A stretch of DNA of 64,000 bases from Henriciella sp. (GTDB taxonomy: Bacteria > Pseudomonadota > Alphaproteobacteria > Caulobacterales > Hyphomonadaceae), in NCBI GenBank assembly GCA_030066975.1, contig JASJAO010000008.1, positions 62,001-126,000 on the forward strand. Direction: 5' to 3'. Shown in pieces: positions 8,600 through 10,435 of the stretch (the stretch's first letter is position 1; the number at the start of each line of letters is the position of its first letter). The notes under the pieces are model-generated. The model was not told the DNA's origin and made no database searches. It saw only the letters and a program-made list of their open reading frames with translations. The position numbers and the translations under genes are program-made.

Positions 8600-9205
8600 A
8601 TGGCGCGGCCCAAATCGACACCTGAACAACGCGAAGCGGTCCGAAACCGCATTCAGAAAGCCGCATCGGACCTCTACAATCAGGACGGCATCGCCGCGAT
8701 TTCGGCCCGGGCCGTGGCCAGGAAAGCCAGCGTATCGGTCGGAACGATCTATGCTCATTTCGGCGATCTGACCGGTCTGATGCAGTCGCTGTGGATCCCA
8801 ACCGTGGAGCGTCAGGCGCAGGTCTTTCGGGCCAAGGCGGGCGAATATAAAGATCCGGTTCAACGTCTTCGAATTCTCCTGATGGAGTATTTGCGCTTCG
8901 GAATTGAAACCCCGGAACTTTACAGAGGTGCTTTGATGTTTGTTCGACCGGCCGGGCTGGAGAAACCGGACGCTGAACCGCTCAGCACAGTCGACTTTGC
9001 CGACCTGCTGATCGAGACCCTCAAGGAAGGCCGGGAGAGCGGCCAGTTTGTCGACGGACCGCCGGAAGTCCTGGCGCAAATGCTTTGGTCGGGCGTGCAT
9101 GGCTGCCTCGCGCTGCCGGTGAACATGGACCGGGTAGCCCTGGCGCCGGCCCGGGATGTGTCTGAGCGCACGGTCGAACTGTTGTTGAAAGCGGTACGCG
9201 CTTAG
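8600..9205 (+). CDS. TetR/AcrR family transcriptional regulator
   Basis: A 201-residue regulator with the TetR N-terminal helix-turn-helix: ISARAVARKASVSVGTIYAHF spans about residues 34-54. The C-terminal helical domain is generic and would bind an unknown ligand. It lies 9 bp after the coq4 gene with AGGAG before its ATG, so both probably form one autoregulated operon under the palindrome at 7813-7824. A possible ligand is a quinone precursor or an acyl compound, but nothing in the sequence decides this. Confidence 0.88.
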   Translation: MARPKSTPEQREAVRNRIQKAASDLYNQDGIAAISARAVARKASVSVGTIYAHFGDLTGLMQSLWIPTVERQAQVFRAKAGEYKDPVQRLRILLMEYLRFGIETPELYRGALMFVRPAGLEKPDAEPLSTVDFADLLIETLKEGRESGQFVDGPPEVLAQMLWSGVHGCLALPVNMDRVALAPARDVSERTVELLLKAVRA

Positions 9206-9209
9206 TTTT

Positions 9210-9249
9210 GGGGGGCGAAGGGAACAGCGCCCCCAGTCGAGCTGGGGGC
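9210..9249 (+). terminator. Two mutually exclusive hairpins after tetR
   Basis: GGGGGCG at 9211-9217 can pair with CGCCCCC at 9228-9234 (7 bp), or GCCCCCAG at 9229-9236 can pair with CTGGGGGC at 9242-9249 (8 bp). The two stems share the same C-run and cannot coexist. They lie 5 bases after the tetR stop. No T-tract follows, so termination is uncertain; the arrangement resembles an attenuator or a compact transcript-end structure. Confidence 0.4.
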
Positions 9250-9264
9250 AGCACGTGCGGCCGC

Positions 9265-9400
9265 GGATGCGGCAGATTTGGAGATTCGGAGGGGTTGTGG
9301 TTTTGCAAAGCGCTAAGAGGCTTCGCCTCACGCTTTGCGAAGCGGGTTCCCGATCCTCGCTGCGCTCGTCCGATGAACCTGGCTCAGGGCTGTTTGTGTT
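9265..9400 (+). repeat. Structured repeat family, copy 1
   Basis: The clearest copy of a four-copy family. An 8-bp outer stem (GCAAAGCG 9305-9312 with CGCTTTGC 9331-9338) surrounds an asymmetric loop (CTAA / A) and a 5-bp inner stem (GAGGC 9317-9321, loop TTC, GCCTC 9325-9329). Then follow GAAGCGGGTTCC, a second variable element, and GATGAACCTGGCTCAGGGCT. A shared upstream part (CAGATTTGG ... GGAGGGG ... TGGTTTTGCA) also occurs before copy 3. Boundaries are approximate. Confidence 0.8.
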
Positions 9401-9404
9401 CGGA

Positions 9405-9515
9405 ACCGGTTGTCCTGGAACGGGAGCCCTCAGCCTGGTTCATGGGCTGGCGCAGCCAGACCGGAACCTGCTTCTGCCTCGCGTCGCCCGAAGGGCGTTA
9501 GCGCGAGGCCAAACT
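9405..9515 (-). repeat. Structured repeat family, copy 2 (inverted)
   Basis: Inverted relative to copy 1 and back-to-back with it. The outer stem is CCTCGCG 9477-9483 with CGCGAGG 9502-9508; the inner stem is CGCCC 9485-9489 with GGGCG 9493-9497, loop GAA. On the minus strand it continues GAAGCAGGTTCCGG, a perfect CTGGC-TGC-GCCAG hairpin, and CATGAACCAGGCTGAGGGCTCC. Both stems differ from copy 1 in sequence but keep complementarity. Confidence 0.8.
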
Positions 9516-9521
9516 CAACCT

Positions 9522-9908
9522 TTAGCTGCTGTCCTGAACCGCAGGCAGAGCGCACTCCACCTCAACCCGCACATGGCCGACGCACCGCTCGCCGCATTCC
9601 ATGATGCGGCCCATCCAGAAGTGGATGGCGCTGAGATGCATCTCACCGGATTCATTGTACATGGCGCGCCAATGGGCGCGGTAGACTTTATTCTGCTGAT
9701 GGCACCAGGCGGTGAGGTCTTTCTCGTCGTCGGAGACGTAAGTCACCCAGACTTTGCCAGTCTCGTCAGCTTGCCAGAGGACTTTGCGTTTGTTGATCCG
9801 GCACCAGCGTTTCACAGCAAACAACTGCCACCACACCCATGGCCAGAGATAGACTGGCAGGTGGCGTACAGCGGCAATGGAGAAGCGAATGTCCATGGGT
9901 AGAAGCAT
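9522..9908 (-). CDS. Orphan 128-residue protein between repeat pairs
   Basis: A predicted 128-residue protein rich in Trp, Cys and Arg, with a WPWVWWQLF patch near residue 22 and a basic KRWCRINKRK stretch after it. No family is recognised and no signal peptide is evident. ATG codons at 9908 and 9896 are both possible; no clear Shine-Dalgarno is visible, and the upstream part is the edge of repeat copy 3. Its amino-acid make-up looks more like a real protein than the opposing plus-strand frame (9255-9902), which begins inside a repeat. The flanking repeats make acquisition as a cassette possible. Function unknown. Confidence 0.55.
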   Translation of the reverse strand: MLLPMDIRFSIAAVRHLPVYLWPWVWWQLFAVKRWCRINKRKVLWQADETGKVWVTYVSDDEKDLTAWCHQQNKVYRAHWRAMYNESGEMHLSAIHFWMGRIMECGERCVGHVRVEVECALPAVQDSS

Positions 9909-10070
9909 ACGCCAGATTTGGGAGGGGAGGATAAGCGGCGGTCTTATCCATGGTTTTGCACAGCGCCAAAAGGGGTTTGCTTGTTACCGCGCTAATGCCC
10001 TACGGGCGACGCGGTGGAAGCGGGTTCCGTATCGCGCTTCGCGCTCACATGAACCAGGCTGAGGGCTCCG
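9905..10070 (+). repeat. Structured repeat family, copy 3
   Basis: Same orientation as copy 1. The outer stem is ACCGCG 9986-9991 with CGCGGT 10010-10015; CTAA lies at 9992-9995; the inner stem is TGCCC 9996-10000, loop TAC, GGGCG 10004-10008 (one G-T pair). It continues GGAAGCGGGTTCC, a GCGC-TTC-GCGC hairpin and CATGAACCAGGCTGAGGGCTCC. The left part resembles that of copy 1 (CAGATTTGGGAGGGG ... TGGTTTTGCA). It begins at the 5' end of the orphan gene on the other strand. Confidence 0.8.
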
Positions 10071-10110
10071 GGGCCGGGATGGCATTTGCTGAACCTTGAG
10101 AAATACAGTC

Positions 10111-10195
10111 TTGAACCTGGTTCATCGGACGAGCGCAGCGAGGATCGGGAACCTGCTTCCACTGCGTGAGGCGAAGCCTCTTAGCGCGGTGAGAA
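10111..10195 (-). repeat. Structured repeat family, copy 4 (inverted)
   Basis: Inverted relative to copy 3. The inner stem is GAGGC 10168-10172 with GCCTC 10176-10180, identical to copy 1; the outer stem is CACTGCG 10160-10166 with CGCGGTG 10185-10191, containing one mismatch. On the minus strand it continues GAAGCAGGTTCCCGATCC and CGTCCGATGAAC, very close to copy 1. Copies 1 and 4 therefore form an imperfect long inverted repeat about 0.8 kb apart. Confidence 0.8.
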
Positions 10196-10358
10196 AAACA
10201 CTCCCCCCCTCCGAGCGCTGCGCGCCCACCTTCTCAGCGCAATCGTATAGGATTGCTGACGCTTCGAAGCCTGCAAAAGCGGGGGAGGAAAGAGACCGGA
10301 AGCGTCGCACTTTCATCGCAGATGGCAACAATCTCGACGATTTGGTCCGTTGAACCGA
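10196..10358. other. Remainder of intergenic region before tRNA-Arg
   Basis: Together with copies 3 and 4 this fills a gene-free stretch of about 450 bases. It holds a C-run (10201-10209) and a 6-bp hairpin, GCAATC 10239-10244 with GATTGC 10251-10256, loop GTATAG. No convincing coding frame, promoter or terminator is seen. Confidence 0.4.
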
Positions 10359-10435
10359 TGGCGATCCCGACGTGATTCGAACACGTGACCTACAGATTAG
10401 GAATCTGTTGCTCTATCCTGCTGAGCTACGGGACC
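10359..10435 (-). tRNA. tRNA-Arg (anticodon CCT)
   Basis: A complete cloverleaf on the minus strand. The acceptor stem GGTCCCG / CGGGATC (one G-T pair) is followed by discriminator G and a genome-encoded CCA (10361-10359). The D arm is TAGCTCAGC-AGGATAGAGC, and the anticodon stem ACAGA/TCTGT holds the loop TTCCTAA with anticodon CCT (10401-10399), reading AGG. The T loop is GTTCGAATC. It sits immediately beside the repeat island at 9.2-10.2 kb; tRNA genes are common integration points, but no att-like duplication of its 3' end was noticed in the window. Confidence 0.95.

Follow-up and report, generated by a model that had tools for sequence, protein, structure and literature searches.

What do four short hairpins with differing stems, all lying within one stretch of an alphaproteobacterial genome, have in common, and what keeps them paired? 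The window that we analysed is a stretch of 64,000 nucleotides from Henriciella sp. (G000:C5:62001-126000) and belongs to a genome of 3.57 Mb in 24 contigs (G000, the own genome hereafter). A sequence-only reading of this window had proposed that the four hairpins form one repeat family, that compensatory changes maintain both of their stems and that the fold is either selected or copied by a mechanism needing the hairpin, as with REP/BIME elements.

The four hairpins belong to two inverted pairs of two-hairpin units

All four hairpins were found at the positions first proposed for them. Each is half of a unit of ~90 bp that contains two hairpins, and the four units form two inverted pairs. 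The features are as follows, with scores from the covariance model R1 described below and with predicted DNA folding energies in kcal/mol.

9303..9391, plus strand: repeat unit A1 (96.0 bits, E 1.2e-25), made up of hairpin 1, GAAGCGGGTTCC, the hairpin 2 region and GAACC-GGCTCAGGGCT
9305..9338, plus strand: hairpin 1 of A1 (-10.8; opposite strand -12.7)
9425..9511, minus strand: repeat unit A2, the inverted partner of A1 (86.4 bits, E 6.7e-23)
9477..9508, minus strand: hairpin 1 of A2 (-11.8; opposite strand -13.7)
9982..10067, plus strand: repeat unit A3 (93.2 bits, E 7.8e-25)
9984..10016, plus strand: hairpin 1 of A3 (-9.4; opposite strand -9.2)
10107..10194, minus strand: repeat unit A4, the inverted partner of A3 (92.1 bits, E 1.6e-24)
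10160..10191, minus strand: hairpin 1 of A4, with one C-A mismatch (-5.2; opposite strand -9.4)

Copies 1 and 3 read on the plus strand and copies 2 and 4 on the minus strand, and it is because the copies are inverted pairs that the CTAA side of the hairpin switches strand from copy to copy. Pairing, which had been described as kept, is imperfect in copy 4, whose outer stem contains one C-A mismatch on its own minus strand, corresponding to a T-G wobble on the opposite strand. The flank that had been described as conserved in sequence does keep GGTTCC..GAACC, but these bases are the stem of a second hairpin that is also variable; likewise, the CTAA/A loop is present, but as one of two stem registers, CTAA and GCTGA.

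A complete unit consists, in this order, of a T-rich flank, hairpin 1, GAAGC-R, GGTTCC, hairpin 2, GAACC and NGGCTNAGGGCT. Hairpin 1 is composed of an outer stem, CTAA or GCTGA opposite a single A, an inner stem of 4-5 pairs and a loop of 3-4 bases. The two hairpins are built alike, with a freely varying stem, a conserved internal loop and a short inner hairpin whose loop is of the type GNA or GNNA when read on one of the strands. The internal loop is GCTRA/A in hairpin 1 and either C-GTATC / TCACAT-G or C-CGATC / TCCGAT-G in hairpin 2; the inner hairpin is weak in a common hairpin 2 type (CGATC..TCCGAT), which 13 of 84 anchored units carry.

The units form a genome-wide family with a REPIN-like organization

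A covariance model (R1) was built from 27 aligned units and used to search the own genome and related genomes, a check that the sequence-only reading had called for. Further copies turned out to be abundant and genome-wide: R1 gave 42 matches in the own genome at E <=0.01, 40 of them at E <=3e-6, and an exact pattern of the second half of the unit gave 14 matches there, compared to 0 for the reversed control. An outcome that would have counted against the proposal, no other copies anywhere, was thus not seen, in this genome or among relatives. The congener G013 contains at least 72 units, a lower bound that equals the number of candidates scored, while G006 contains 9 units and G035 gave 28 weak matches.

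Units are found singly, in tandem or as inverted pairs that could form a single large hairpin. Of the 16 neighbouring pairs in the own genome, 14 are inverted and have hairpin 1 on the outside, their spacers being either 18-20 (5 pairs) or 33-39 bases long (9 pairs), and the 24 clusters comprise 14 pairs and 10 singletons. Of 24 such pairs in G013, 13 are inverted, and 7 and 4 have a tandem arrangement. The family therefore displays the architecture that characterizes REPINs, which is an over-representation of inverted doublets foldable into one hairpin. Two peculiar layouts were also observed: several tandem units at G013:C2:217069-217562 (L174-L178), four of them at a 95-bp step, resemble tandem REP arrays, and two units in the own genome (L008, L019, L028) carry an insert of ~60 bp in hairpin 2 that is itself palindromic (GAAATTGATCCACCGGATCAATTTC).

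Compensatory changes keep both stems paired

The statistical covariation test that had been suggested was done on the 27 aligned units, which were compared with 500 shuffles and with slid versions, one register being imposed on both classes. Paired cells amounted to 85.5% (69.0% when shuffled, 30.5-47.8% when slid), double-change cells to 69 (27.0 when shuffled, sd 3.3) and the covariation score to 0.363 (0.098 when shuffled), and none of the 500 shuffles or of the slid versions reached any of these three values. The remaining two of the five measures were not distinct from shuffled data: 9 pairs showed a double change (7.9 when shuffled, reached by 97 of 500) and 17 further pair types were found (15.9 when shuffled, reached by 181 of 500).

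Since R1 itself rewards pairing, the test was repeated using an anchor that ignores hairpin 1. Of 84 units located with this hairpin-blind anchor, 70 had a strict hairpin 1, compared to none of 1680 mononucleotide shuffles: 17/17 in the own genome, 49/60 in G013, 4/4 in G006 and 0/1 in each of G016, G032 and G008, identical sequences and matches near contig ends being excluded (which brings G013 from 65 to 60). Apart from the 11 of 60 G013 units that failed the strict parse, most of which appeared by eye as hairpin 1 with extra mismatches, we did not see copies that keep the sequence and lose the pairing.

We then swapped the partners of the arms among 44 distinct hairpins. Outer arms matched their own partner at 97.4% of positions and a swapped partner at 54.6% (best of 5000 shuffles 67.9%), while five-base inner arms (n=41) reached 100% with their own partner and 62.4% with a swapped one (best 77.1%). 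Altogether, the covariation, hairpin-blind and swapped-partner tests bear out the compensatory change proposed for both stems and confirm that the window hairpins with covarying stems are real and beyond chance. Covariation within a genome does not suffice, however, to tell whether the fold is selected or whether palindrome correction or gene conversion is at work.

Copies in other genera stay paired through double changes

Relatives also carry the family, with R1 matches at E <=1e-6 in 18 of 105 family genomes; in one other genus, nine genomes gave a single match each. Twelve of 16 examined stretches (the nine from that genus, with a further one from each of G008, G016 and G024) contain hairpin 2 and the tail without hairpin 1. 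Hairpin 2 copies lie behind the stop codon of a gene with what we take to be a GyrB-like end in G032, G088, G103 and G084, behind a tRNA (identified by Rfam) in G078 and G093, and behind hairpins that look terminator-like by eye in G099, G080, G079, G008, G016 and G024. In a set of 12 ungapped 35-base copies of hairpin 2 from ten genomes besides the own one (eleven without hairpin 1, the 37-base G080 copy being omitted, and one G016 copy with hairpin 1), 119 of 120 stem cells were paired. The four copies at the GyrB-like site differ by the double changes T-A to G-C and G-C to C-G, with zero unpaired cells. Judged by eye, the outer stem of hairpin 2 is GCTTC/GAAGC in G018 and GTCTC/GAGAC in G035. 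The loop rule is loose in other genera, where TTG, CTC, GAT, GTA and GGC occur.

These observations bear on the possibility that the fold is not selected at all and that the arms are simply kept alike by palindrome correction (template switching) together with gene conversion among copies. Such a process would fit the near-perfect arms (457 of 477 cells are Watson-Crick), the free recombination of inner and outer stems among copies (CCTCGCG, for example, is found with three inner stems in G013) and the mosaic look of the copies of a 124-codon gene described below. It leaves unexplained, however, why internal loops and loop class are conserved despite varying stems, and the four copies at one orthologous site pair on through two double changes. 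We thus consider it unlikely.

Many repeat pairs occupy an exchangeable slot behind a 124-codon gene

In the window, the repeats are associated with a gene present in many copies, which is part of a larger gene unit:

9522..9896, minus strand: 124-codon gene, one of 25 matches in the genome, 20 of which are intact
9249..9273, minus strand: constant end motif of the gene unit, GCCGCATCCGCGGCCGCACGTGCTG
9929..9949, no strand assigned: short hairpin GGATAAGCGGCGGTCTTATCC at the 5' end of the gene unit, a putative boundary

The 20 intact gene copies are all 375 bp long, with a median dN/dS of 0.167 (185 usable pairs); the gene is under purifying selection. Short hairpins resembling GGATAAGCGGCGGTCTTATCC precede several other gene copies, and the end motif has 23 matches in the genome when up to 3 mismatches are allowed (control 0), and 21 of these matches stand behind a gene copy, on its 3' side. 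In each of the 22 copies whose 3' end is intact, a strongly folded module (z -4.6 to -13.2) comes next, with the same end motif after it. Four unlike palindromic modules share this position: the present repeat pair (9 copies), a second palindrome (9 copies), a third (3 copies) and a fourth (1 copy). Six members of the protein family had no match in Pfam, and neither NCBIfam nor PHROGs gave a credible match to the 124-codon protein. Its AlphaFold model (two sequences, mean pLDDT 68.9) matched nothing in the PDB or the viral library at E <=0.001, the best structural match being an uncharacterised viral protein (E 0.0092). Searches of plasmids and phages gave no match to the protein or to the first repeat pair.

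Two side observations concern this region. Between the second repeat pair and a tRNA-Arg gene, at 10205-10290, lies another type of palindromic repeat (CTCCCCC..GGGGGAG), which contains inner hairpins and also occupies the gene-unit slot in L023, L024 and L026. Moreover, within 8600-10435, the gene unit stands between a TetR side and a tRNA-Arg/nuclease side that are non-neighbours in relatives, and it may mark a rearrangement point.

Could the repeat then be a mere passenger, multiplied together with the adjoining gene unit? Eleven of the 14 own-genome repeat pairs are in or beside gene units (nine fill the slot and two flank), and of the seven genomes with the gene in a relative set of 61 (25 copies in G000, 14 in G013, 2 in G006 and 1 in each of four others), the three with at least two copies, G000, G013 and G006, are also the three with the most strong units. 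The repeat fills only 9 of the 22 gene units with an intact 3' end, however, the other 13 having other modules, and it also occurs without the gene as singletons, as copies adjacent to a transposase gene described below and as copies in another genus. A passenger role is therefore improbable in our view. The gene, the palindromic module and the end motif might instead make up one mobile or recombining cassette whose 3' slot would take any sufficiently folded palindrome, an idea that we put forward with considerable doubt. Where both could be located in genus relatives, the TetR side and the tRNA/nuclease side were either far from each other or on separate contigs, and because they are not adjacent, no empty site was seen for the window copy. 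As neither an empty site (sought for the window copy in genus relatives) nor a target duplication or an excision product was found, mobility is only inferred.

Loops, folding energies and mismatches favour a DNA fold

In 64 of 70 parsed units, one strand carries a loop of the G(N)NA type (GNA or GNNA), and the loop-closing pair is C-G in 44 of 44 distinct hairpins, while 167 other window hairpins used for comparison include 12 with G..A loops and 6 with T..C loops. On G-C stems, GNA and GNNA loops are described as extraordinarily stable DNA mini-hairpins (PMC4686876). With DNA parameters, the G(N)NA strand is the better folder in 3 of the 4 window copies. The 20 non-Watson-Crick cells among 477 comprise 7 G-T, 9 A-C and 4 others, so that G-T is not commoner than A-C, even though the hairpin parse itself favours G-T. 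The GNA-strand loops, the fold energies and the G-T/A-C balance favour DNA without proving it.

Structured RNA was a competing explanation, with units acting as 3' untranslated elements or small RNAs that would protect the mRNA of the adjoining gene or bring it to an end. Nine pairs stand directly behind the stop codon of the 124-codon gene, where three other strongly folded modules can take the same place, and in G013 the stop codon falls within the internal loop of hairpin 1 at 7 of 12 inspected loci, all of which would suit such a role. Against it, wobble pairs are not enriched as just described, each inverted pair presents one unit per direction, on both strands, single units also occur away from the gene, no terminator-like match falls on the repeat hairpins, six copies stand behind terminator-like hairpins and the repeat has no Rfam match. 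Because G-T pairs are not above A-C pairs and because some copies lie behind terminator-like hairpins, a selected RNA fold is not supported, and we give this explanation little chance.

Searches with Rfam gave a single tRNA over threshold in the whole window, no match in 9100-10350 at E up to 1 and, at 17 loci, only tRNAs over threshold with all else sub-threshold. A known RNA family was ruled out on this basis, as were transcription terminators, with zero terminator-like matches on the repeat hairpins.

A single RAYT gene in the own genome is followed by three units

An association with a transposase had also been proposed as a check. The own genome encodes one RAYT:

G000:C22:338849-339355: RAYT gene (NF047646 125.8 bits, cut-off 80, E 1.2e-36; PDB 4er8 E 2.3e-27)

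Its product has the features expected of a RAYT, with the HUH motif PGHMH and a Tyr aligned with Y115 of 4er8; it has no match to Pfam Y1_Tnp. Three units lie behind its stop codon within ~310 bp and zero units in the 1.5 kb upstream, the chance of a unit cluster beside one given gene being ~0.7% (24 clusters, assumed 3400 genes). The picture is different elsewhere: G013 encodes two RAYTs with no unit near either and with GTAG-type repeats adjoining them by eye, and no RAYT match was found in G006 or G035. The transposase association and a copying mechanism that needs the hairpin thus find a footing in the own genome but not in these three others, and because other unit-bearing genomes have no RAYT linked to units, the link is suggestive only. 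As an HUH single-strand DNA transposase with three adjoining units, the own RAYT would be the best candidate for a mobiliser, a tentative assignment that we regard as possible but somewhat more doubtful than not.

Among relatives, 5 of 17 aligned RAYTs (L099, L100, L101, L102 and L104, in G008, G024, G011, G028 and G016) have Phe at the position of the catalytic Tyr and keep the HUH motif. By eye, these share a neighbourhood with a nuclease gene and a hydroxyacyl-CoA dehydrogenase-like gene, and they are possibly domesticated, inactive RAYTs.

The family resembles known palindromic repeats without carrying their tags

GTAG and CGTC tags define known REP superfamilies (PMC3733652). GTAG or CTAC was found in hairpin 1 or within 18 bases of it in 4 of 70 parsed units, the 5' flank being T-rich, and CGTC or GACG in the six bases 5' of hairpin 1 in 0 of 70 (TGTC and CCTC variants and the 3' side being uncounted). 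Since both tags are absent, the units are not a defined REP family, and the earlier comparison with REP/BIME elements holds for their REP/REPIN-like organization only. As in the description of both superfamilies, they are short palindromes that form dimers and lie downstream of genes, and CGTC repeats are described as common in alphaproteobacteria and as having no dedicated transposase, as here (PMC3733652); the present units differ by having no tag at their hairpin ends, by having two hairpins each and by being longer.

The likeness to REPINs and their RAYTs extends to the inverted pairs, which are scattered between genes and favour two spacer lengths, and to the single RAYT of the own genome with repeats beside it. 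REPIN spacers are reported to show compensatory changes on the two sides of a predicted hairpin, as seen here (PMC3116915). In REPINs, however, the REP sequence itself is highly conserved, whereas here the unit stems vary and the internal loops are conserved, and the RAYT link is found in one genome only. Group 2 REPs of E. coli and TnpA-REP are likewise described as having a long stem with an irregular zone important for recognition and a strand-specific single-strand DNA substrate, but GTAG is essential there and absent here, and the present stems are far more variable (PMC8266576).

Integron cassettes with attC also consist of a gene followed by a folded, sequence-variable palindrome (PMC8266576), but the gene-unit copies are scattered over contigs rather than arrayed. 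An integron gene cassette was ruled out by the absence of the attC boxes, with RYYYAAC near the start of 0 of 22 modules and GTTRRRY near the end of 0 of 22.

A limited literature search found nothing on RAYTs in Alphaproteobacteria or on palindromic interspersed repeats in Hyphomonas, and as far as it shows, the family appears to have no published description. The ~40 copies with varying but paired stems, many of them beside a gene, suggest a mobile element that is recognised by its fold more than by its letters. Our preferred reading, which we hold to be probable, is that the units belong to a non-autonomous, REPIN-like repeat and function as a single strand of DNA in its folded state. The fold would act as DNA, a protein would read the internal loops while accepting any paired stem, and copying would need the fold.

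What the repeat family may tell about the reading of DNA shape

The exchangeable palindrome slot behind a many-copy gene is the oddest part of these findings. If the cassette idea were true, it would amount to a gene-dispersal system that reads DNA shape, integron-like but without integron boxes; if the slot were a recombination site read by shape, bacteria would have a second case of DNA exchange guided by structure. As for the repeat itself, the usual definition of REP-like repeats relies on a conserved tag and a palindrome, whereas this family keeps internal loops and a loop class. Every stem drifts within a genome and across species, so that the family would record in nature the requirements of an enzyme that reads DNA hairpins, and these are directly testable here using one RAYT and a few oligonucleotides.
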